This document shows positions 1 to 62,770 of a stretch of 64,000 bases of DNA, in pieces. The position numbers and the translations under genes are program-made. The notes beneath the pieces are model-generated. The model did not search any database. It was not told where the DNA came from and was given only the letters and a program-made list of their open reading frames with translations. How positions within the stretch are numbered: the stretch's first letter is position 1; each line of letters starts with the position of its first letter. Origin of the DNA: Branchiostoma floridae (taxonomy: Eukaryota > Chordata > Leptocardii > Amphioxiformes > Branchiostomatidae); the NCBI RefSeq assembly GCF_000003815.2, contig NC_049979.1, positions 23,830,724 to 23,894,723 on the forward strand. Direction: 5' to 3'.

Positions 1-3000
1 GATTGTGTCGGACTACTCCCAGATGGACCGTGTGCTGAGGGAAGAGAGAGCCTACATCCTGAACCTGGTCAAGCAGATTAAGAAGGCTGGCTGCAATGTT
101 CTCCTCATTCAGAAGTCCATTCTCAGGTTTGTACAGAATAATGTATGCAGGTTGTAACGAAATTTGGTATGATATGTACTTGAAAGTAGTGTATTACATA
201 AACAAACTCTCAAGAACATATCACAGTGTAATATACAGCACTATCCCAGAAAGTATTAATTTTTTTCCAATAATCAGTGGCAAAATCAACTGTCAACAAA
301 AACTAGGCACCTTTCAAAATCAAATCTTAACCAGTCTGCTCATACAGCAGTTGCAGTGTGTCATCAGACATATACAGGAGTTGTTGTCCTGTGATTACAA
401 TTAAATTCATCACTGTTTCTGTTGGCTGTTTGGCCATTGTAGCATCTTTGCATACAATATCTTTTCCGGTACGACATTCAAAGACTCTATGGCCCTATAT
501 CATCTTTCCATATGTGAACAAGACCTTATATGATACAATCTGCCAAAGTGCCATATGTGCCATTGTTGGTAATTGTGTGTATGTGTGAACTTCATACAGC
601 AAATTTGACATTGTGGCTCGTTTATGTACAGAGATGCTGTGAATGACCTTGCTCTACACTTCCTGGCCAAGATGAAGATTATGGTTGTCAAGGACATCGA
701 GAGGGAGGACATCGAGTTTGTTTGCAAGGTATGAAGATTGTGTAATGTTTTTGTCTTGTAGTGTGGTGTAGTCAGCTTTTAAAGTGAAACTAAAATGTAA
801 GGTTCAAACCCATACCATATCATATATTTCCCAAAGTTATGTTCTCAGCTGTATTACAAAGTAAGTAGAAGTAACAAGTGCCTTTTGTCCCTGTAGAGCC
901 TTGGCTGTCGGCCCATCGCCAGCGTCGACCACTTCCAGCCAGACATGCTCGGACAGGCCGAGCTCGTGGAAGAACTCCAGGTCGGCTCAGGCAAAGTGGT
1001 CAAGGTAAGGATGACATACAGGGTTTAACTTAGGAATGGTACCTTGGAATGGACCTATCATATGCATATGTAACTTGTTCTACACTTTTGTAGCATTAGC
1101 CATTGGTAGTGGAAGATACCAATTTGTCTCAACTATTGTTCCATTTAGTCTGAAGAATGATGAATTAAACAAATTGCCAATGATAATTACCTTTGCAAAG
1201 AAGGTTGTTTTTGGTGTCTTTTGTGGTTTTGTGTGGGCAGCATAACTCTAAGAACCTGTGGATGGATATGGTCAAGTTCGATATTGGGCCTCAGCGGTAC
1301 TGCATGAGATTTTCTGGCTTTGATATCTTGTATTCTGGACGTGTTTGTGTTAGTGGTCAGACCTATAGCTGATCCTTGTTTTTACCAACAGATCACAGGA
1401 GTACAGAACCCGGGCAGGACCGTGTCTGTGGTGCTCAGGGGCTCCAACAAACTTGTCCTGGAGGAGGCTGACCGCTCCCTCCATGATGCACTCTGTGTCA
1501 TCAGATGCCTGGTTAAGAAGAGGTGAGGCTATCTTTTGTTTTCAGCTACATAAGCATTGCTCACAACTGTTACGTAAGAGACATTTAGTTCCTGCAAGTT
1601 TTGCTGGTTAATATTGCCTTTAAGTCTTCCCCGTTGCGTACTATCAGCCCATTGGCAAACTATTGCAAAGGATATATGTCCTTATTCACGTGAGCACTTT
1701 ATTTCCTCTAGGCAAAGCACGTGTTCATCATGATGAGTTTGTGTTAGTCCTTACCATGAAAACTGAAAAGATAGCAATATTATAGACCTTGGTACTAAAT
1801 GTTTGGCCATTTAGAAAGAATTTAAACTGGCATCATGGGTTACTACTTCATGGCTATCAGCTAACCATTGTTGTTTTTCTGCAGATTTTTGATAGCAGGT
1901 GGAGGAGCGCCTGAGATTGAGTTGTCTGTACGCCTCAGTGCGTACTCCCGCACCCTGTCCGGCATGGAGGCGTACTGCATCAGGGCCTTCGCTGAAGCTC
2001 TGGAGGTCATCCCGTACACACTAGCAGAGAACGCAGGCCTGAACCCCATCGGTACAGTTACAGAGCTGAGGAACCACCATGCAGAGGGCATGAAGACTGC
2101 TGGCATCAATGTTAGAAAGGTGAGCCATGGTCTTTACTTTCCCTAAATTTCACTTCTGAGAAAAGGCCTCCAGCACTGCAATATCCACTCATCATTTTTC
2201 TTTTGCTTGGCTTTTATGCATAACACACCAGTTTAGTACAGTAAGCACAAGCTGCATGCACATAAGACCTGTCATGTTTGATCCACTCACATTGTCTTTT
2301 TGATAAGTATGGTTGGTTCTTTACCATGCTTAAGGTATGGCTTTCCTTAATCTTAAAGCCTCTGGCTTTACCTTACCATCCAATTGGACAGTTCTGATGT
2401 AGTATTCCAATGGATTAGTTCTGAAGGTAAATGAATGTATTGTACCCACAGGGCTGCATCACCAACATCCTGGAGGAGAATGTTATCCAACCCCTGCTGG
2501 TGTCCGTCAGTGCAGTCAAGCTGGCAGCAGAAACTGTCACACAGATTCTCAAAATTGATGACATCGTGAGTATGGCCTCCTATTCTTCATGTTCTTTATT
2601 TCAACTTTAACTTAAGGCTCTCTAAACTTCGTCGCATACCTTAGGAAGACCTTGAAATTCTATGGACATGACTAGATCCTGTGAACCGGTAAAGTACCAT
2701 AAAAGTCAAACAGGTCCGAAGTGCCAGATCTTGATGTACTGTACCCAAATAGCTTAATTCTACACACTGTGTATACTTTTTTGTGACTTAAAGACGCATA
2801 AATCCTGTCACAAAGCCTAACACTGGAAAAGACTCAGAGCACAGGCTAGTTCTGTTCTGATTGAACTTTGAGTAAACATTGTTGTCAACAGTTCATTACT
2901 GCCTAAATTTTTGTAACCAATTCCTGTTCCTGATGTTTCATATAAGTAGGCATACTAGTCATGACCATAATTGTATGTCACTCAGCATATGTAGCAATAT

Positions 3001-3075
3001 GTCAATTGGTTGGTCCATATCCCTACTAAATCGTAACTAAAAACAGTTTTTATTTTTCAGGTTAACACTCGCTAG
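1..3075 (+). CDS. CCT4: T-complex protein 1 subunit delta (CCT4), C-terminal half; 5' part lies outside the window
   Basis: One of eight subunits of the cytosolic TRiC/CCT chaperonin, an ATP-driven ring that folds actin, tubulin and other proteins. Seven coding exons are visible: 1-126 (cut by the window edge), 632-728, 897-1004, 1392-1522, 1885-2119, 2452-2565 and 3061-3075. All introns are GT-AG and the frames join without error, giving 274 residues of a family of about 540. Seen motifs include [26 protein letters not shown]-like [22 protein letters not shown] in the ATP-binding fold and ENAGLNPI near the end. The protein ends KIDDIVNTR, like animal CCT4. The last coding exon is only 15 bases (VNTR and stop). 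The exons are close enough to vertebrate CCT4 that another CCT subunit is unlikely. Confidence 0.97.
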
Positions 3076-3731
3076 TACAAGAACTCTTGAAGGAGGACCT
3101 GGGAGATGATTCTGCATGTTGATGTCTACATTTAATAGCAATCTGAGTTGTTTTTCGTAGATTTATATCTACCATTGATAAGTACATGTCGCCCTTGTTA
3201 TTTAGTGGCCATGCACTTGTCATGAAGAAGGAGCTTATCATAAACTTAAAAAAATTGCAGTACCAGTAGTTATGTGCAAACGAGATCTACACGTATATAT
3301 ACATACAGCCAACTTTGTATTGTGTGTTTGAGTGGAAATTCAAATAAATTAATATCCTTTGTTGTGTCACGAAAAGTTTGTTGTTCCTGTTTTCTCAATA
3401 TCACAATTCAAATCGAATTATCAAATGATGTACACAAAGAAACATAGTTCATAGCTATGCCTGTAACTGATTTCAAGACTGGCTCCAGCTCTAAGATGGG
3501 ATGAGTAACCAGCTTGAAATGTTGTATCCACTTGGTATTCAGTGTCCTCAATCTTTGTTGATCAACTTTTTGGCATAGCTTTACATGCAGCAAACCAAAG
3601 CTGGTTACACATCATGAAACTGCAGTTAGGCCTTGGCACTCCAGCTTGTCTAGCTCAGAAGCACACACATCATGACCACACTGTGGTTTAGAAGCTGAGA
3701 GTAGCTGCTGTACAGTATAGTCTCTTCATGG
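3076..3731. other. Convergent 3' ends of CCT4 and COQ6
   Basis: The stretch holds the CCT4 3' UTR from the left and the COQ6 3' UTR from the right. No coding exon is seen. The two stops are only 656 bases apart. No clear AATAAA is present on the minus strand before the CCT4 poly(A) site. A weaker ATTAAA on the minus strand at 3131-3136 would make the two 3' UTRs overlap. Confidence 0.6.
3343..3348 (+). terminator. Poly(A) signal of CCT4
   Basis: AATAAA lies 268 bases after the CCT4 stop, in an A/T-rich 3' UTR, followed by a GT-rich stretch (TTTGTTGTGT). This is the expected layout of a cleavage site near 3360-3370. Confidence 0.7.
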
Positions 3732-6700
3732 TTACTTGCTGGCAAACCCCATTATTTCATTCTGTAAAAGAACAACATCAAGAAGCATCAGATACCAGTA
3801 TTGAGATAGGACATTACAAAATACAGCTGCAGTACTACAGGGTGACAAGGAAATATTATAATCAAAACAGTATGGCCTGTAATTCCAATAAACTAATCTT
3901 ACCCAAATACATGTATTTGACTGTCTAGTCTTTGTGAAGGAATGAGCAATCCACTGCTTTTATGATGTTACGTAATGTAGATAGCACACATGACTTTGTG
4001 AGCAGTGGATCATAAGTTGAAAAAAATGGCTACAGTTGGGTAGATCGAAATTGCAAATTACAGTTCAACTTCACTTCAGAATGATGTTTATCAGCACATT
4101 ACCCACCTTGAGTGGTTTGATGGCATTGGTGAACTGTAGCCCCACACTCCTGAGGAGCACCAAGGCTGGGTTATCTGAGGAGTACAGTCTGTGCAGACCT
4201 TCAATGGCAGCCATCATGGGAATAACCGCCTGCTGTCTCTTAGTCTCGAACTCCAACAGTCTATCTACGCTGCCTGGAGAAACATGGGGATCAATGTCAT
4301 TTTTGTCCTAAGAGACTACACTATTCCACACAAATTGCTGAGGCACATTTACGTCATTGATGTACCGGTGCACTGGTGGGTAGAGTGTTCGCATTCAGTA
4401 CAAGTTTGTACCTTGACCGAATCATAACAAAGACTTAAAACATGGCACGCTACCACTTTCTCTGCATAGCAGTCAGGGGACAGAGTGTGGTAGTTCAACA
4501 CACGTCACAACCAGTGGACAAGCCCCCTGTTGTAGTGACAACGACTTGTGCCCAAGGGCTATTGAAACAAGTTAGGTGCCACCCTTTGACTTCGGACAAT
4601 ATGGACAAAGGACTGACGACCTCTGTAGTGTTGCTGGACTACAGTGCAGCGTTTGACTTGGCGGATCACGTCCTTCCGAAGAAAAATGTGTGTATAGATT
4701 CTTTCTCAGAAAAAGCGCTGTCGTGGATCTGGTACGGTAAAGACTTCATTCTAAAGTATAAGGAAATGAGAAAAAAACACTGTCTGACCTATATCCTCTC
4801 CCGTAGCCTCTGCATCCGACACCACCTGCTTCAGACAGGAGACATCACCGAACCCCAGATTCACACCCTGGCCAGCCATAGGGTGCACTCTATGTGCTGC
4901 ATCCCTACGACATAATGATACAGACGATCTTCAGATATAACAACATGTACCTGTAATGAACACAATGTCCCTGTATTTCCAAAACAAGCTGCTAGGGGAT
5001 CCAAACCTACTTCACTCCTTTCTTTCTTGATATCAAAAGCTATTTGCAGCTAAAAAATCAGCACAAAGATACAAAAACTGTAAGTTCTACTGCTATATCA
5101 AGGAAAGCCACCACGATCGATCGACACTGTCCTTTGTCTTCCCAAGATATACATATAAAATATGACGATCAATCCAGAGGTTTATAAATTATTCTGAGCA
5201 AAAATATCTAGACACAGACATCCAAACAAACCATAAAGAACATCTCCATTTTTCATAGAGGTAATAACCTACATACCAACGTATCAGTGACCTACCCAAT
5301 AATGGCCATCCTGTGCTTGACATACTGTGTGGCATGGCCCAGCCCCAGAGGGAACATGGCCCTGCTGTCTGCATCCACATCAGACACACTAGGAGGCAGC
5401 TGTCTGGCTGATGTTCCTCCTGACCACAAACACAAACACTGTTTTCTCAAATATTTCAATAATCTGTACATATTGCTTTGCAGGAGGTAACAGCCTGACT
5501 GACGGTATTTTATTCATGTCATACCCACCCAAGAAAACACATTTCAATGCAAAATGAACAATCTGACAGTTGCCCAGAAGTTGACAAAATTTACTGTCTT
5601 AAAACAAACAAAAAAAAGAAAATGTTGAACTCTTGCATTAAATTTGGAGTCTGCAGTGGATGTCATCCATAAAACTAGACATGCTGTGACCTGCTACTCA
5701 CCAGGGGAAATTGTGGACAGGATAGACTGCACGGTCTGTACAGCAGAGTCAACAGCAGCCTCCCTTTTATAGTCCTGCCACTGAGAAAAGACAAGGATAC
5801 TTTGGAATCAGTTCCTATTCAATGTTTTTCACATTATCTTTCAATTGATATTAAATGTTAAGTTTGAAATCAAAGATGATTCAAAGCCAAATTGCAGATG
5901 GATTCAAAGCCAAATCAACAAACCGATGACAAAAAGTTGCTACTCACAAATGCACTGTTGACTGCCTCTACAAACTCCTCTGGTTGCATCTGCAGAAGTG
6001 TCTCTGCATCCTCAGAAGTTGTGGACCACACCAGGTTACTGTGGGTCTCACTTAACTGTAAACAACACACATACACTTGGATAAGATGCTCTGGTACTGA
6101 TACATGTTCTACAGTAGGTTGACTGTAAACAGATGAAAGGCCATGTGAAAAATATCACAATTTACTTTTAAATGAAAACTTACAAAACTCCAAGGAGACA
6201 TTGGATTCATTATAAATGTTAAAAAAAGTGTAGGACTGAAAATTAAGAATCAGTATAGATGTCTTAAGTCAAGTCGAGAGATACTAGTGATTTTAAGAAA
6301 GAAGTCCTACCGGTAACATGGCAATTGGACCAGTGGGTAGAAACCTCTGCCAGGCAACATTGTTCACTGTTGGCTGTATGGAATAGAACAGTCAGTGAAT
6401 GATTAGAAATCTGCATCTTTCAAATTCAGGGATCTAAGTAGTGGGTGTATGTCAGGGCTGCCTCTATCCTTATTTTTTTTCCTGTCCACTCATTGTTTGA
6501 GAGCCCATGTAATTAGATTCAATTTAATTTATCTGTGTAATCAATCTATCATTTTAAGCTTAAGAAAATGTATTTTCATCAGTTCAGTTTCATGTCATGT
6601 TTCAAGTTCAGATTTTTGTAATGTAATGTACATGTACCTCTGAGAGTTTGAGCGTAGCCACGACCCCAGCCTGGCTGTAGCTCCATGACAACTGTCGGAT

Positions 6701-8735
6701 GTTGGCCGTCTGTCTTAGCAGGGATTTAGGACCATCTGCTCCAATCTGTTGAGTATCAGTACAGAAATAAGAATAAAGAAAAAACTCCAAAAGGAACTCC
6801 ATATCTTTTTACACACACACACACCCAACCCACATGGAAAATACACACTGACAATGTAGATAACTGGAGGACATACTGACTACTAAGTGTCTATTGCCAG
6901 CTCAGAAAGGAAAAAGAAATAGTAGTCATGCCTTCAAGTACCAGACTTATAAACTAAGGACTGCTGCATTCAAAAATGTATTTTTCCCTATATCAAAGTT
7001 AGAGGTATTGTAGAGCAGAGCTCCTTGCCACCTTGCAAGCAGAAACATCCCAATTGGATATGCTTACAGTTAGGTTATGTGTGACAAGGATAGGTGTGAC
7101 AGGCCTTTCAGTGTAATATAACCGTTATATAAAGACAGATACATTGTACAAATATCAGCCAAAAGACATACCAGAAGCCTTGTATCGAGCACCCTGCCAT
7201 CCTCCAGGATCACCCTGGCCCACGGACTATCCTCACCATCAGCGACCTTGGATGGTAGCTTGTAACCTTTGACCTTTGTGTCAAACATGACGTCCACGAG
7301 ACCCTGCATGCCATCCAGCTGTTGCATCAGGCCTGACAGGATGACATCATTCTCCACGATGTGTGCAATGTCCTCATTCAGCTCATCTCTGTCAAAGGTG
7401 ATCATGGCATCGGAGCATGCATCCCACACCTGAGAGGGTGACATATAATATACATGAAGCAAGAACTTGATTCAGCCAAGTTATATTATACTACATCTAG
7501 TATATGTTTGATTCAGTTCTTTTTATCAAAGGGATTGATAATGTTCAAGATTATCTATGGAATTGAAGAGTTACCTGCATCCGTTTATATGGCCGCACTC
7601 TCATATTTTTGATGTGATCCCATGCTCCAATGTCTGAAAAATAAGCATGGGAAACTGATCATTACTGATGTTGCTGTGATGTCTGGTTTCCATAGTGACA
7701 GGTAATCCTGAGGTCTTTAATATTCAATGGATTTTCATAATCATAGTGACAGATAATCGTGAGCTCGTATTGATGACTTTAGGATTAGGGAGCGACTTTC
7801 TCTCAATTTAGAGCCACAAGGTTCCAGAGAGGAGGCCCAGTAAGCCTCTAAGTCTAACAGAGAATGTGTAACATATACATGTAGTTGACCTTGCAGCAGC
7901 TGCACAGTTCCAGGTGTGAGTGAGCAGACCCTGCTGCTGAACCTGTCAGGCACCTGTGTCAGCACCCTCCTGGGTCCTCCATCCAGCATCAGGATCCTCC
8001 TGCCCAACAGGACTGGGTCACTGCCTACAGGGGAGACAAAAAATGTTTTTAACAAGATCTTTAGACTCACTAACGTTAATTATGTAAATAGGTTTTGATT
8101 AACATTAGATCTGTCCACTAAATGTGACTAATCACTTCCTGTCACTTTACATTGAACCTCAAAGACACAAGCAGAGGGACTGAGCCTCTTCCAATGACCC
8201 CATGACCTGGACTGTCATGTCTGTCATCATGACTAGTTCTGCCACCTCTGAACTGTACATTACTTCCTCCTGGCACTTCAGCTTTAAGGTCATCCTCCCA
8301 CTCAGTTGACTTCCTGTCACAGTATCGACAGTGCAATAACAAAACTTCAGACCAAAGCTCCTTGTTCAGACATACACACCAACCAAAACAAACCAACACG
8401 GAATGACGAAGTCAAAAATCATGTTACATCACACCAAACATCATATGGCAACATGTTGCAACAGTTGATGGTTGACACCAATATAAACCTTTCCACTCAC
8501 CAAGTGCTAACGCCATCGCAGCCCCCACCATCCCCCCTCCTGACACGATGATATCGTAGAAGTCTTGAGGCACATCTTCCCATGTGTCTTCTGGAGGGGG
8601 AGGGGCAGACTCTGTAGACTGTTGTGGTTCTCCTACAGAGGACAGTGGGCGTACAGCCAGTCTCCTCGTGCCTGGAACTACATCTGTACTTCTGATGAAA
8701 GCTCGTACTGTAGTTCTACAAAATAAAGCTGACAT
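3732..8735 (-). CDS. COQ6: Ubiquinone biosynthesis monooxygenase COQ6
   Basis: Mitochondrial flavin-dependent monooxygenase that hydroxylates the ring of coenzyme Q precursors within the COQ complex. Twelve exons: 8501-8735, 7890-8024, 7575-7633, 7172-7429, 6638-6745, 6311-6373, 5948-6055, 5702-5780, 5296-5419, 4789-4904, 4107-4273 and 3732-3761. All phases join, giving 493 residues (human is about 468). The N-terminus is rich in Arg/Ser/Thr without acidic residues for about 35 residues, as in a mitochondrial presequence. Motifs: FAD-binding [12 protein letters not shown] near residue 65, the GADG loop in exon 5, and the second flavin motif [20 protein letters not shown] in exons 9-10. Human-like landmarks include VWDACS, IVENDVI and VAWQRFLP-like [10 protein letters not shown]. 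The terminal exon codes only NEIMGFASK, matching the usual C-terminus. It is head to head with FAM161. Confidence 0.95.
4595..4735 (+). mobile_element. LINE reverse-transcriptase relic in COQ6 intron 10
   Basis: The plus strand, antisense to COQ6, encodes DNMDKGL, then [17 protein letters not shown], then FSEKALSWI in one open frame. This is the order of the RT motif A region of CR1/Jockey-type non-LTR retrotransposons (LLDxSxAFDxVDH, then FSExALSW). Only about 47 codons are recognisable. The frame then runs into the antisense of COQ6 exon 10, so this is an inactive fragment. Confidence 0.75.
5651..5691. mobile_element. Solo end of the Harbinger-like MITE found at 17864-18666
   Basis: Within COQ6 intron 8 the sequence matches the right end of the larger element almost base for base over GGATGTCATCCATAAAA, ending TGTGACC versus TGTGGCC. 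No matching left end is visible nearby, so this looks like a truncated copy. Confidence 0.5.
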
Positions 8736-9104
8736 TGTTATTGTTATGAAGCGCCTAATGTTATGTCCCGATCCAACTCCGCAACACCTGAGCTTTCTCT
8801 CTTAATGTAGGTCAAAGGTCAAATTGGCTTAGCTGGCTGATGTGATTAGTACCTGTACAGATCGATGTATGATAACAGCGTTACTAATAGTCTGTTAATA
8901 TACATAAATACATAAAAATAAAATAGTATGTTATAATATCTTAATTTCTAAAGCTTATATTTTAGATATATCTTTAGATTTTAATCATTTTGACAGGCAA
9001 ATTCTAGATCTGCAATAGACAGATGCAGCGCAAAGCATGGCGGGATAGTAATCAACCGTGGTTTATTCATTCCAAGGAGACGCGTAAATAGTCAAACGGC
9101 GATC
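8736..9104. promoter_or_regulatory. Shared head-to-head promoter of COQ6 and FAM161
   Basis: Only 369 bases separate the two start codons, which point away from each other. The part next to FAM161 is more G/C-rich and contains AAAGCATGGCGGGA at 9032-9045, similar to the YY1 core ATGGCGG often seen at transcription starts. The middle (8890-8990) is very A/T-rich. A bidirectional promoter is inferred from the spacing; no transcript start can be read directly. Confidence 0.6.
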
Positions 9105-12100
9105 ATGGCAACCGGCCATGGAATGGCAATGTTGACCAATTCCTGCGTGAAAAACCCCAGGATTCCGGGATCTCGACTAGCGGCAAGCTTCAGCGAGAGA
9201 CTGGACACTACTAAGATCAAGAACAAGGGTCGTCAGGGGCAGAAAAGATCGCCGGGGAGAAGGACGGAAAGTGTCGACGAGTTCCTCCGATCAGACGACG
9301 ACGAACCGAAAACCACTACTTCTACAGTCCAAGATGTTTGGCTGAAGCCTGAGGACGGAGAGCCAGGAGCGGGCGGAGATTACACAGGTGAACCACGGGT
9401 ATACGAGGAGGATGTGCACCACACTGTCGACCCGATTGGTGCTCTTGCCAACGAAATGTCCAACATGTCCACCGATGATTTCTATGAAAAGATGCAGGAA
9501 CTGAAGAGAGAACACCAGAAGACCTTGACCATGGTGCACGGGCTGTATGAAGAAATCCGCGAAGCAGAGGAGAGGCGAAGCCACAGAGAAGCAGACGCCA
9601 TGGAGAGTGCAGGCACGGAGGAGCTGTTCAGAGATCTGGATGACTTGAGAAGTAGCTTCAGGGCATCCCGGAGTGCGGACAAGATAAGGGACATGACAGC
9701 AGCCAAGCCGCCTCTGCCCACCACCAGCAGCAGACCTCCCTCAATGTCCAGCAGCAAGTTTGCCTGGTCAGCAAAAAGAGACCAAGACATCGATCTCAAC
9801 TACCTGAAAAGGGCCAGAAGTCTGAGTGAACAGGACTTACGGAGGGCGGGGTCGGACAGCTATGCTTCTAGTGATGATGATGGCGGTGGCTATGAGTACG
9901 AACTTGAAGATCGCCCCTCACCCTGGCGGCAAACAACCCCAGGACCCACGCCGATGAATCGTATAGATAACATGTGGGATGACTTCTCTGTGGATGACTA
10001 TGCTCCCAGGGGGAGGTCAGTGTCAAGAGCTTCTCGAACCAGCACCTCAACAAAGAAAAGCAAGGAGTGGTCTCCTAAGATCACAATTCCAGAACCCTTT
10101 GAAATGACTTTGCGCGAGGCCAGCAAGCCAAAGAAAAAGACGTCTGCTATGTTAGCCCTTCAAGAACACTTGATCACCAAGCAACAACGAGAGGAAGCAG
10201 AGCTACAGAAGAAGTTCAAAGCCTCCCCAGCACCAGCACATGTTTATGTCCCAATGTTTGATGATATCATGAGGGAACAGGAAGAGAAAAGGCAACAGAT
10301 CAGACAATACAGCAAAGAAATACTCAAGTCCATGGAAAAACCTTTCAGCTTCTACAAGAGGGAAGAGGAGAAAAAGAAGGAAAGACTAGAACGGGCTCAG
10401 TTCATGATGAAGACCACCCCAAAAAAGAAGAAGGTAAAACAGTTCAAAGCCAAGCCCGTGCCTCGATCCTTGCATGACCCCGCAGCGGCAGACAGAATCC
10501 TGGAGGATGAGGAGTACAGGGCAATTAAGAAGAAGATGAGGGCAGAGGAACTCATGAGATCAGCTTCCCTCCCTCCAAGTATGCAGGCGAGAGAGAATGC
10601 CAAAATGGCAACTTCACAAGGTAGAATGTACAGCAATAGGCCCAAGAGTGCCGGATACTCATTCAAACCAAAGATAAGGCACTCAGTACCCGACTTTGAC
10701 CACATACACAAAAAACTGCAGTGGGAGCTCGGACAGAAGAGGAGAGCAAAGGAGGCCACTGTACAACAACCGTTCAACCTCCGCACGTCTCGTATTCCCT
10801 CGAAGGCTCACAAGATCTATGAGGACATAGAGAGGGACCAGCAGAGTCTGAAGGAGAACAGGTGGCCTTTCAGAGCGCCCCGGTCACGCCCCCTCTCCTC
10901 CCCGGGGCGGTTATCCACGTCCATGGACTCCATCCCGGCTGCTACAACAGAGTCCACACGTAAGAGGACCCAGGCGGTGCGAGCATCCCTGATGGAGAGA
11001 GAGATGTATGAGCAGGAGGAGAGGATGAGGGAGAGGCAGAAGAGACTGAAGGAGAAGGAGATTAGAAAGTCTTTGGCCGCCAAGGCAAGGGCTAATGATC
11101 AGTCTCTGGCCCTCAGTGAAGTGAATGATGACAAGCTGAAGGAATTCAGGTTTGTACAACTACTAAAGTACTATATACAGTATGTTGTCATTTACCTCTG
11201 GTTCACCTCTGATGGGGGTATCGTTTTTGGTTGTGTGCATATATGCCTGATCTCACCTCTAACTCAATAGCCTTTTGATGGATTTGTATGAATTTTTGGC
11301 ATGTGGGTAGTTAATGAGGTCCCCTAAAAACATGGTAAATTGGGCCCACAAGCAGTTTTTCAGTACAGTAGTCCAATACCCTCTTCAAGAAATTTAGTAG
11401 TACTGTATATGGTATAATCCATGACAGACAGCTGGTCTGCCCTGTATTTACTATAGGTCAATGACCTAAATTTGGGGCATCTGGTGAAGCTTAGGACTTG
11501 TTGAGCAACTCGTTGTCAAGCCCATTTCATAATTTGTATTCAGGTACCAGCTGTGATAAAAACAATCCACCAACATCTAATATTTTGATGTCTTTTCAAC
11601 AGAGATCAGGAGAGAGCCCGCCAGCTGGACTACAAGAGGTCGCTGAATGAAATGATGGCAAGGGTGGAAAATAGGCCATATATGTTTGAGAGGCAATCAC
11701 AGGTAAGTAGATGTTCCTAAATGTAAAAGTACAGCTTCTATGTTTATGAATATCGTATATCACTTTTTATCAGTATAAGAAGAGCCCTACTGTATTAAAA
11801 GCAGTGTGATACACTGAGCTGGGCTACCCCGGCTAAAGAAAACAGAATTTAAAAAAAAGAGCCTGCATCTGAAGGAAAATGGAGAAAAAAGTGGTTAATT
11901 ATAACTTAGTATGTCAGGTGAACTGTGGTTTATGTTGACAGGTGGTCACTTTAGTATAGACAAGATTTTTTATTCTTGTGTCAATGGGAAAAAATACAGC
12001 ATCAAAGTGACCACCAGTGATCACATTGGCCAGGTGTTCCTTATGTAGAAGTGCTGACATGTTTGACTGTTTATGTAACAATAGGTCATCTTGTTTTTGG

Positions 12101-12404
12101 ATAGTTTCTTTTTGAGCTTCCTCTTCTGCCTGATTTCTACTCTCTATCTCACACCTACAAAACTTGCCAATTCCAGATCAATGCAAGGAAGGCGGCTGAG
12201 AAGAAGTACCAAGAGGCCCTGCGCAGTGCTGGAGTGGACGAGGTCTTTGTTGCTGAAAGAAACAGCAGGTCTCAGTCCACCAGCTACAACCTGAGTGACA
12301 GTGACAGTGACAGTGACGAGGGGTCATTCCAAAATACTAGTACAAAGGACACTCGTCAGGACAGGAGTCCCTCAGTTAGTGAGGAGTCAGACTTGGAGAT
12401 GTAG
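9105..12404 (+). CDS. FAM161: FAM161 family protein (single-copy relative of FAM161A/B)
   Basis: Microtubule-associated ciliary and centrosomal protein; human FAM161A is mutated in retinitis pigmentosa 28. Three exons: 9105-11149, 11603-11702 and 12177-12404, 790 residues. The family signature starts near residue 325 with KITIPEPFEMTLREA. It continues with APAHVYVPMFDDIM, KPFSFYKREE and FKAKPVPRSL, which match the conserved FAM161 core in order. The C-terminal half is strongly charged coiled coil, including SLNEMMARVENRPYMFE and AEKKYQEALRSAGVDEVFV, as in FAM161A. The protein ends with an acidic SDSDSDSDE run. The N-terminal 320 residues are low in complexity and poorly conserved. The first exon is unusually long (2045 bases) compared with the other genes here. 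The start ATG at 9105 has GATC before it and is the first in frame. Confidence 0.93.
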
Positions 12405-50300: not shown

Positions 50301-52146
50301 TGGATTTAGCGATAAGTTATGCCAACTGCAATATTTGACCCGGGCCAAACCAGACTTCCAATTCTGCAAGTATTCTATTCCAGTTTACACCCTGCAGCAT
50401 GCCATTAGGACTACGGACACACACCGAGACAAACAAACAGCAGACCGACAACAATGCTACCGGTTTCAGTGTACATTTTTATAGAAAATTTGATAGACGC
50501 GGCTCTTTGCTTCATGTCTTTGCCTTTGTTGCGGGCAGATGTTTTGTAATTCCTGAGTATGAATTGTTACCAAAATCTAGGTTACTTTGCAAAATTGCAG
50601 CTCAACCACTTTTTCTTACCATACATATATTTTTCTGAACAACAATCTATGGCTACAACACATTCGATGGTAATCCACTCCATCTAGACGTCTCATACCT
50701 CATTTGTTTCTTGTAAGGAATCCTCAGCAGCTACGGCAACGGCTCCCTTGTCAGCCATTCCGATGTTATTGCGAGGAGCGCTGTTGTCTGTGGGTTTCCT
50801 GTCGACATTTTCCATTTGATCCTCGCCCTGATAGTGAAGGTCCTGTGTTTGGTTATACGGCATCTCATACATTTCCATTGTGTCTTATTAATACTTGTGT
50901 TGATATACTACTAGTACCATATCAATGAATGCTTCTCAATGATAGCATATTGCACAATAACGAGACACACTTAACTACGGAACTCATAGACGAAATCTGA
51001 TCTTAATGGACACGTAAAACATTCATAACGAGCACACAAAGAATACTTTATGTGCAAAAGCAACATTTAAGGTTTATGTATGTTTACGGGATGCTAAACA
51101 AATGGATTTAGCGCAGTGAAATAAAACACGACAAAGTACACAGAGAAGTTCATGTACGCCTGGAGTAAACCACAATCTGATGATCCTACCCGTTTTTCAC
51201 GGACAAGTTGAATTGGATCGTCCTCAATCCCCTTTTCTTGTTTGACTCCCACTGACGACTCCCGGTGCAGGTCCCTGCGGCTGTCCTGCATGCCGCGCAG
51301 CTCGTACACATTCAGGACCGTGACAAAGATTCCCACGAACAGCACAACGGCAACGACACGGATCATCCTGCGGCCGATGATCCGGGTCAGGGCAATGCCT
51401 GGCGACTGGTAGGCCGCTCTTGTCTACGAGAATGCAATGTTGAAAACTGGATTGCTCTTTCTTGTTCGAATGGGCAAAACCTAGCATTAAGTATTAATTT
51501 ATGACTCAATCAGAACAAACTGAATCGGCTTACAGATTTTTGTCGTGACACAGACTGTACTAGTATAAGGACTGTTTAGCTATAGCAATGCTGTAGGGTT
51601 AATGCGAATTGGAACTTAGCCATGGTCAATATTGGTGGAAGGGGGCCATCTTTGTATCTAACTGTGACTACTAGAAGTAAAAGTTTGAATTCCTTGAAGG
51701 TGCAAGCCTTGTGTCACTGTGATAGCCTTGTAAGACCTCATACACTACAGAATGGCTACTCTCGCACTTACAAACAATTGTCGAAACTAATCTTACAAAA
51801 ATGAAGATCACTTGACTGTTGACCAAGATATCGGAAAGAAACTTCTTGTGGCCTTACTTTCCGTCTCTTTTAACTTATTTCAATAGGAACTCCGGCCTCT
51901 CAGAGCTCGTTTTCCGTAGTTACATTTGTTTGCAATAGCAGAGAAACTACGTCATTGCGCCGAACTTCTAACAGGCTCACCATAGCGACCTATGTGGCAC
52001 TGACATCACTATGTACTACTTAGAGGAAACTTCAAAAACCAAGTCATTTCTTCACACACACACGTCAAGATGATAACGCATTGGAGACTTACAACTGACG
52101 GTATGTCGTTCTTCTTCTCCCATCCGTAAGAAGAAATCATCTTCAT
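44394..52146 (-). CDS. TTLL family protein A: membrane-anchored tubulin-tyrosine-ligase-like
   Basis: ATP-grasp ligase of the tubulin tyrosine ligase-like superfamily; most members add amino acids to tubulin tails, but the substrate here is unknown. Exons: 52093-52146, 51190-51423, 49501-50172 (optional), 49055-49216, 48474-48593, 48162-48237, 47939-48005, 47432-47515, 47083-47167, 46788-46866, 46501-46615, 46145-46211, 45914-45976, 45551-45615, 45167-45272, 44685-44798 and 44394-44513. Result: 760 residues with the optional exon, 536 without. A hydrophobic anchor (VVAVVLFVGIFVTVLNVY) lies near residue 50. TTLL motifs: MWVQKNNNHRGIKI, FLIDGRKFDIGIYTVVTS, VRFDFVVDEDL and MEVNMSPN. The C-terminus has nine cysteines. 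It resembles the invertebrate ttll-15 type more than vertebrate TTLL1-13, but this is a recollection, not a search. It is a tandem paralogue of gene B. Confidence 0.9.
48851..49020 (+). repeat. Dispersed repeat family 3, copy 1
   Basis: Shares CCTGC-TTGC-ACAT, TAAT-GAA-ACCACAG, TGTTAC, CTCTGGTC-like TCTGGTCCAGGTCATTGACC, TTATATGT-TGGA, GAAGAAG and GGAGATAAACAT in order with 58871-59030. The two copies lie in non-equivalent introns of genes A and B, so they are separate insertions. Confidence 0.6.
49501..50172 (-). other. TTLL-A extra exon: disordered Met/Gln-rich linker
   Basis: A 672-base exon (224 codons, phase 0 at both ends) found only in gene A. It starts NKFAKLADNYENIG and is rich in Ser, Lys, Gln and Asp. 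It then carries an imperfect repeat VQMQQPVQMQQQVQM, coded by an 18-base DNA repeat at about 49600-49665. It ends RSPVLWVHASN just before the conserved IESGYLDH. It would lengthen the stem between the membrane anchor and the ligase domain. Because both ends are phase 0, it can be skipped without a frameshift, giving a protein like gene B. Confidence 0.75.
50699..50878 (-). CDS. Candidate alternative first exon of TTLL-A
   Basis: An open frame of exactly 60 codons starts MEMYEMPYNQTQDLHYQGED, ends at a good donor (GAG|gtatga) and is in phase with the 672-base exon. Its ATG has A at -3 and G at +4. Two in-frame stops lie just upstream. The only nearby acceptor (AATAAG|) would not keep the frame from the anchor exon, so this looks like a start exon of a shorter transcript without the membrane anchor, not a cassette. 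No transcript evidence is available here. Confidence 0.45.
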
Positions 52147-61500: not shown

Positions 61501-62770
61501 ATAAGGGGTGAGTTTGGGGTCTGCAAAGGGGTAGTCGTGTGACCACATGACGTCCCAGCTGGACTCAGGTAACCCTCGCTCATACCCAATCCTCTTGAAC
61601 ACAGCAAACACATGGTTCAGGTACCCAGACTCAAGCTGAGGAGAAAGAAATAATTACGTGGTGATGATGTACAAATGTACATCTAGCTCATGTTTTTGTA
61701 ACCTAGAAGTTTGTTGAGTAGCCTGGAATCCAGCCTTGTTTGCTTTGTTCCGCTCCCGAAGGTCGCTACTACATACTAGCCAACACTTTCAGAAGCGAAA
61801 CAAAGCAAACAAGGCTGGACTCCAGCCTAAGTATTTATTATTTATTGAGAATGTTCTTGGTAACAAATTTTCCAAACAAAAAGACATCTGTTACCATATT
61901 CTTTCTAATCTTTCTTTGAAATGTTGATCAAAATACATTCAGAATAATATAGCTATTAAAGGTACATGTATTATCTGAACACGGCCATGATTTATAAACG
62001 TTGAGTTGGCTGAAAAGACATCACAGTACCCTTTTCCCTCGGATGACAGCTATTGGTCTGTCCTTGACTCCTTTGTCAGTTCTGCCCTCTGCGGCTGGCC
62101 AGTCCCGATGTAGGCTCATGTGGTCGTTCTGCATGCGGCGCAGCTCGTACACGTTCAGCGCCGTCAGACAGATGCCGAAGAACAGCACCACCGCAACGAT
62201 GTTGATCACCGATATCTTACCTCCTGTCACACGGCTCAGGGGAGGTACTGGGACATTACTGGGCCTTGTCTGCAGCAAAAACAACAAAAGATGGAGATTA
62301 ACTTGATGGATGCTTCACTGTGCCTATAACATGCAACACTATGTTTAAATTCTAGGACCATACATTCTCCTATGCAGAGTGATAGTGGCCTATACAATAT
62401 ACACTTCCTTTCTAGCACAATTTATTCTTTTATTTATTTCTGTATTTCAATTGTGATGGGAGAATGTCAATGATACACACAAAAATCAGCCTTTTACTAA
62501 TCAATATTATTTGTTCAGTCAACCCAAGGAGCTCTCATTAATGAAATAATGAATTTCAAAGCTCTTGAGGTAAAATAGCAACATTTTCGAAAAGATAGAA
62601 GCAACCACATTGTCACATTTGTCCAAAATTAAGCTCATATTACAAATTATGAATACAATAGGTCTATTATCTGTGGCACTATAGAAAATAATAAACTTGT
62701 GATATCCCAAACTTACAAATAACGGCATGTCTGTCTTCTTCTCCAGTCCATACAAAGTTCTAGAGAGCAT
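55518..62770 (-). CDS. TTLL family protein B: membrane-anchored tubulin-tyrosine-ligase-like
   Basis: Tandem paralogue of gene A. Sixteen exons, 537 residues: 62717-62770, 62030-62269, 61474-61635, 60745-60864, 60430-60505, 60125-60191, 59596-59679, 59120-59204, 58570-58648, 58221-58332, 58020-58086, 57789-57851, 57600-57664, 56842-56947, 56062-56175 and 55518-55637. Anchor: residues 37-58 (ISVINIVAVVLFFGICLTAL), with a short cytosolic N-terminus predicted. Ligase motifs: WVQKNNNHRGIRI (201-213), KFDIGIYTVVTS (241-252), RFDFVIDEDL (367-376) and MEVNMSPN (381-388). Asp373, Glu382 and Asn384 fit the metal-binding triad of the fold. C-terminal cysteines are at 446, 451, 457, 462, 465, 468, 494, 529 and 536. 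Start: ATG at 62768-62770 begins MLSRTLYGLEKKTDMP, paired with MKMISSYGWEKKNDIP in gene A. Substrate unknown. Confidence 0.92.
57408..57567 (+). repeat. Dispersed repeat family 2, copy 2
   Basis: Same ordered blocks as 28841-28976, better preserved at the 3' end (ACTTGCTGCCCTATGTGCCA). Lies in an intron of TTLL gene B, just before exon 13. Confidence 0.7.
58871..59030 (+). repeat. Dispersed repeat family 3, copy 2
   Basis: Same ordered blocks as 48851-49020: TCCTGCCACTTGCCACAT, TAATTGAACACCACAG, CATTTACCTTATTTGTATGG, AGAAGAAGTAC and GGTAAACATG. Confidence 0.6.
61720..61828. mobile_element. 109-base palindromic MITE in TTLL-B intron 2
   Basis: AGCCTGGAATCCAGCC plus TTGTTTGCTTTGTT is mirrored by AACAAAGCAAACAA plus GGCTGGACTCCAGCCT. 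The loop is about 25 bases. The end sequence is close to that of 55235-55336, although the inner arms differ completely. Confidence 0.8.

Follow-up and report, generated by a model that had tools for sequence, protein, structure and literature searches.

The described systems closest to the locus reported here are the 2R ohnologue blocks with their quadruple conserved synteny (PMC7269912, PMC6292497), the ancestral bidirectional promoters of amphioxus, and the vertebrate genes FAM161A and FAM161B. The amphioxus genome is reported to have undergone no large-scale duplication, and its gene order within chromosomes to be extensively rearranged (PMC7269912). A quarter (25%) of neighbouring amphioxus genes are reported to be in bidirectional promoters, of which 372 were inferred to be ancestral; vertebrates lost the majority of the ancestral ones, 54.5% at the stem-vertebrate stage (PMC6292497). 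FAM161A, a retinitis pigmentosa gene (RP28), and FAM161B are described as vertebrate-only paralogues that are 31% identical (PMC7551519); invertebrates are reported to have one FAM161 orthologue.

Two mammalian neighbourhoods serve as the comparison. Papers on human 2p16.1-p15 give the gene sequence XPO1, FAM161A, CCT4, COMMD1, B3GNT2 (PMC3953211; PMC5426703), and one of them also places OTX1, MDH1 and UGP2 at 2p15 (PMC5426703). On chromosome 14, the hg19 spans printed for FAM161B (14:74,399,694-74,417,117) and COQ6 (14:74,416,636-74,429,813) overlap by 482 bp (PMC5845532), and a cattle gene list reads ZNF410, FAM161B, COQ6, ENTPD5, with DLST listed with COQ6 (PMC12075139). The first-pass annotation of the lancelet DNA had claimed both human adjacencies, and print agrees with it: FAM161A and CCT4 are listed side by side at 2p15, and the chromosome 14 spans of COQ6 and FAM161B overlap. 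As for gene directions, we take CCT4 and FAM161A to point the same way at 2p15, and COQ6 and FAM161B to lie head to head at 14q24.3.

The locus compared with these systems is from Branchiostoma floridae. The window, by which we mean the whole 64,000-nucleotide stretch that was analysed, is C1:23,830,724-23,894,723, and the genome searched comprises 513,431,437 bases in 431 contigs. The features, in window positions, are these:

2-3075, plus strand: CCT4, C-terminal half; seven exons (2-126, 632-728, 897-1004, 1392-1522, 1885-2119, 2452-2565, 3061-3075), 274 aa, splice-consistent model
3735-8735, minus strand: COQ6; twelve exon cores, TIGR01989 match above cut-off
8735-8502, 8025-7891, 7634-7575, 7429-7172, 6745-6638, 6373-6311, minus strand: COQ6 cores 1-6, borders within a few bases
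6055-5948, 5780-5700, 5417-5295, 4903-4787, 4271-4107, 3761-3735, minus strand: COQ6 cores 7-12, borders within a few bases
8736-9104, no strand: stretch separating the start codon of COQ6 from that of FAM161, a putative shared promoter by spacing and composition
9105-12404, plus strand: FAM161; three exons (9105-11149, 11603-11702, 12177-12404), 790 aa
16650-17464, minus strand: 3′ exons of ATG2, which follows FAM161; PF13329 (ATG2_CAD) matched above its cut-off in two exons

CCT4 (+), COQ6 (-) and FAM161 (+) are direct neighbours, and no further gene model intervenes in the window; the order and directions proposed in the first reading are borne out by the gene models together with the family profile matches. 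CCT4 and COQ6 lie tail to tail with about 0.66 kb from stop to stop, and COQ6 and FAM161 lie head to head with 369 bp from start codon to start codon.

Each of the three genes was assigned by its match to a family profile. FAM161 matches PF10595 with an E value of 8.6e-71 and 239.3 bits (gathering score 29.9) over profile positions 2-364 of 364; as with FAM161A and FAM161B (UPF0564), the lancelet protein fits the full length of the profile. The three Tpx2-like ridge motifs and two loop motifs reported for FAM161A (PMC7551519) also occur in it: a motif scan run without a shuffled control placed PF+/-O ridge motifs at residues 331, 413 and 556, and FKAxPxP loops at residues 371 and 447. The lancelet gene differs from the two vertebrate genes in being single-copy and in having one 2.0-kb exon that codes for most of the protein. 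Genome-wide, both of the candidates were scored and one PF10595 match emerged; a second FAM161 gene, whose presence the first-pass annotation had named as a ground for giving up its own reading, was not found in this search. No relatives of FAM161 were found in PDB, genome_contigs or viral_contigs.

The joined COQ6 cores score 521.7 bits against TIGR01989, for which the curated cut-off is 489.3; because they were joined for the profile search without exact borders, residues may be absent at the joins. All seven genome-wide profile matches, every one a single exon under the whole-protein cut-off, fall inside this gene, giving one COQ6 locus in the genome. A reading frame in a COQ6 intron, at about 4439-4700 on the plus strand, resembles by eye a broken fragment of a reverse transcriptase from a retrotransposon.

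For CCT4, the best family by far is TIGR02342 (CCT delta; E 2.4e-149, profile positions 244-517 of 517), and its 498 bits fall below the cut-off of 695 bits because the window holds the C-terminal half only. Twelve PDB sequences were listed with E <= 1e-60, and the top 11 are CCT delta. The 5′ half lies outside the window and extends upstream to about -4.26 kb, as judged from exons recognised by eye. The neighbour on the 5′ side of CCT4, in head-to-head orientation at a distance of about 1 kb, is a minus-strand gene at about -13.0 to -5.2 kb that by eye resembles a sphingosine-1-phosphate phosphatase; its PAP2 match (E 9.5e-5) is under Pfam's cut-off. Human SGPP1 lies on 14q.

The order and directions of the trio are the simplest source of the neighbour pairs found in human on chromosomes 2 and 14, and so the locus looks like an undoubled block. 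With a probability of about 0.82, we read it as the lancelet form, never duplicated, of a chordate block, CCT4(+)-COQ6(-)-FAM161(+), that was doubled and then reciprocally thinned in vertebrates. Specifically, the vertebrate genome duplications would have copied the block; the 2p15 copy would have lost COQ6 and kept CCT4-FAM161A, and the 14q24.3 copy would have lost CCT4 and kept FAM161B and COQ6 head to head. COQ6 and CCT4 would thereby each have gone back to one copy, from opposite blocks, with FAM161 staying double. The proposed history resembles the published 2R ohnologue blocks and quadruple conserved synteny (PMC7269912, PMC6292497) in that one lancelet locus faces several vertebrate loci, and in that those vertebrate loci sit on chromosomes with other duplicated families. 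It differs from them in concerning the order and orientation of three neighbours and a reciprocal loss, at a single locus rather than as a chromosome statistic.

How readily such an arrangement would arise by chance was estimated with a simple model of random gene placement (28,192 genes (PMC7269912), with the C1 gene number taken by length), uncorrected for the choice of the pattern after the fact. Under this model, the pattern in which FAM161 has COQ6 as its head-to-head neighbour, with CCT4 next along and pointing the same way as FAM161, has a p value of about 1e-7 on a single chromosome and about 6e-10 genome-wide. Given the rearranged background of gene order on amphioxus chromosomes, preservation of the trio is, on this simple model, unlikely to be due to chance.

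If FAM161A and FAM161B come from the genome duplications, then their surroundings should be paralogous and C1 should hold single counterparts. C1, which makes up 6.9% of the genome, does hold further genes that belong to human 2p and 14q: a SIX cluster, XPO1 and DLST. Three full-length SIX matches are clustered at 25.63-25.77 Mb (~0.13 Mb), some 1.7 Mb past the window, and C14 carries a fourth match, a partial one, at 10.54 Mb. The XPO1 model has a single genome match, at C1:12.67 Mb. For DLST, four of nine matches, the best three included, lie at C1:9.99-10.03 Mb, each exon alone being under the cut-off; the five others (C4, C15, C17) are probably related acyltransferases. XPO1 and DLST are the two linkage genes covered out of five chosen in advance; the Pfam OTX model gave no matches anywhere, controls included, and is thus silent as a linkage marker. 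We take C1 to be the published BFL1 and CLGA, and the left arm of chicken chromosome 3 and the right arm of chicken chromosome 5 to correspond to human 2p and 14q. BFL1 is reported to descend one-to-one from an ancestral chordate unit, and unmixed CLGA blocks to make up those two chicken arms (PMC7269912). In human, the SIX genes are at 14q23.1, 2p21 and 19q13.32, and OTX1, OTX2 and CRX are at 2p15, 14q22.3 and 19q13.32 (PMC2211742). The presence of SIX, XPO1 and DLST on C1, with mammalian homologues in the 2p, 14q and 19q regions, fits genome duplication followed by reciprocal loss.

The extent of the block is a separate matter. Six COMM-domain matches were found in the genome, three on C2 and one each on C4, C7 and C10; any of them may be COMMD1, and a COMMD1 exon could be missed. 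With none of the six on C1, COMMD1, the human neighbour of CCT4, is as far as seen not beside lancelet CCT4, so the human CCT4-COMMD1 neighbourhood does not appear to be common to lancelet, and we do not claim a block reaching to COMMD1. Thus the idea put forward in the first-pass annotation, one block duplicated and then reciprocally lost, is in good part upheld for the trio by the single FAM161 and COQ6 loci, the C1 linkage, the published paralogy of FAM161A and FAM161B and the human positions, and is limited on the side of COMMD1.

Other histories could produce parts of this picture. A tandem duplication of FAM161, either earlier than the genome duplications or independent of them, may have given CCT4-FAM161A-COQ6-FAM161B, from which lancelet lost the middle copy and vertebrates split the halves; one locus would likewise yield both human neighbour relations. 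This account is improbable, as it requires one more duplication plus a loss, the CCT4 and COQ6 stop codons leave little room between them, the genome-wide search returned no further PF10595 match, and 2p and 14q hold further duplicated families, SIX and OTX. We give somewhat less credence to hidden paralogy, in which the split between FAM161A and FAM161B predates vertebrates and just one of the two is the orthologue of lancelet FAM161. The low identity of the two proteins would suit such an early split, but lancelet FAM161 is accompanied by the partners of FAM161A and FAM161B together, and the two paralogues are reported from vertebrates only, with one orthologue in invertebrates.

Least probable, in our view, is a derived lancelet order, in which a rearrangement placed CCT4 beside COQ6-FAM161 and the likeness to human is coincidental. 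The extensive rearrangement of amphioxus gene order within chromosomes (PMC7269912) lends this some plausibility; against it, both partners match in position and in direction, for which the simple single-chromosome model gives the low p value above.

The head-to-head arrangement of COQ6 and FAM161 raises the matter of a common promoter. The divergent starts, at 369 bp, fall within the spacing used to define bidirectional promoters (< about 1 kb). The interval has a GC content of 0.35, with an AT-rich middle (0.27 at 8801-9000), and a CpG observed/expected ratio of 1.05, compared with 0.42 for the window. A scan for promoter motifs placed one YY1-like core at 9037 and, on the minus strand, a single CCAAT and a single half X-box-like AGTAAC; the patterns for NRF1, ETS, SP1, ZNF143 and a full X-box matched nowhere in the 369 bp. 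An X-box-like 14-mer at 9099 was rejected as evidence: it has four mismatches, and the window contains 29 sites of this kind in all. From its sequence features, we infer that the interval may act as a promoter common to COQ6 and FAM161. It resembles the ancestral bidirectional promoters described in amphioxus (PMC6292497) in that head-to-head coding neighbours start a few hundred bases apart; relative to that published set, the 14q copy would be a kept pair and the 2p copy a pair minus its partner. Abstracts found for COQ6 with the term 'bidirectional promoter' concern yeast coenzyme Q.

Such an interval also offers a reason for retention. We propose that the head-to-head pair persists most likely through one common regulatory interval of a few hundred bases, because breakage of an interval from which both genes start would damage both. 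Duplication followed by reciprocal loss, in which the pair was retained on account of a shared promoter, is the history that we infer from the arrangement.

Beyond FAM161, the ATG2 coding region probably continues on the minus strand, to about 38.8 kb, judging from the sequence; coding segments at 27.7, 31.1, 33.9 and 38.6 kb had no Pfam match. Two similar short minus-strand frames, at 51217-51420 and 62030-62275, each have a hydrophobic stretch ending LNVYELR and no Pfam match, and are perhaps duplicated signal-anchored genes. About 14 kb upstream of the window is a GC-rich repeat with Arg/Ala/Gly/Pro-rich open frames on both strands. More distant neighbours, at -49, -31, -23, +68 and +104 kb, are VANGL (Strabismus), the PP2A scaffold PR65, a proprotein convertase, NOP53 and a sterol-sensing-domain protein. 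The human counterparts of VANGL and of the proprotein convertase are presumably not on 2p or 14q, and we take human PPP2R1A (PR65) and NOP53 to be at 19q13. The FOS, LTBP and SPTB families are also found on the set formed by 2p, 14q, 11q13 and 19q13. This neighbourhood thus has relatives on 2p, 14q, 11q13 and, through PR65 and NOP53, probably 19q13.

The position of ATG2 bears on a third human family member, FAM161C/TSGA10IP, which is reported in a few mammals only and is 29% identical to FAM161A (PMC7551519). TSGA10IP lies at chr11:65.71 Mb (PMC4646511), ATG2A at 11q13.1 (PMC5542184) and ATG2B at 14q32.2 (PMC9389459). Since TSGA10IP and ATG2A are both on chromosome 11 and ATG2 follows lancelet FAM161, we offer a guess, to which we give a little under even odds, that three FAM161 genes of mammals, not two, go back to the ancestor that this undoubled locus represents and that FAM161C is a third survivor of the genome duplications, the 11q13 copy. 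The identity between FAM161C and FAM161A is nearly as low as that between FAM161B and FAM161A, which would suit either an equally old split or fast evolution. In the accessible portions of the literature naming both TSGA10IP and FAM161A (PMC7551519, PMC7205035), this idea was not found. If it is true, then FAM161C is no mammalian novelty, the loss of COQ6 beside FAM161A could have freed the latter for its photoreceptor role, and FAM161B would have remained tied to the promoter of COQ6.

The class of event proposed here is expected and well known, as many ohnologues and the 372 putatively ancestral bidirectional promoters have been described. No title or abstract that we found describes the CCT4-COQ6-FAM161 trio, most subscription papers and all supplements being outside the scope of that search. 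If the lancelet order is ancestral, then FAM161A is the copy minus its head-to-head partner and FAM161B the copy with it, so that a change in expression after duplication could be traced to the loss of a single neighbour, with an undoubled locus to measure it against. The COQ6-FAM161 pair would then predate vertebrates, and the locus would provide a small, clean example of reciprocal loss.
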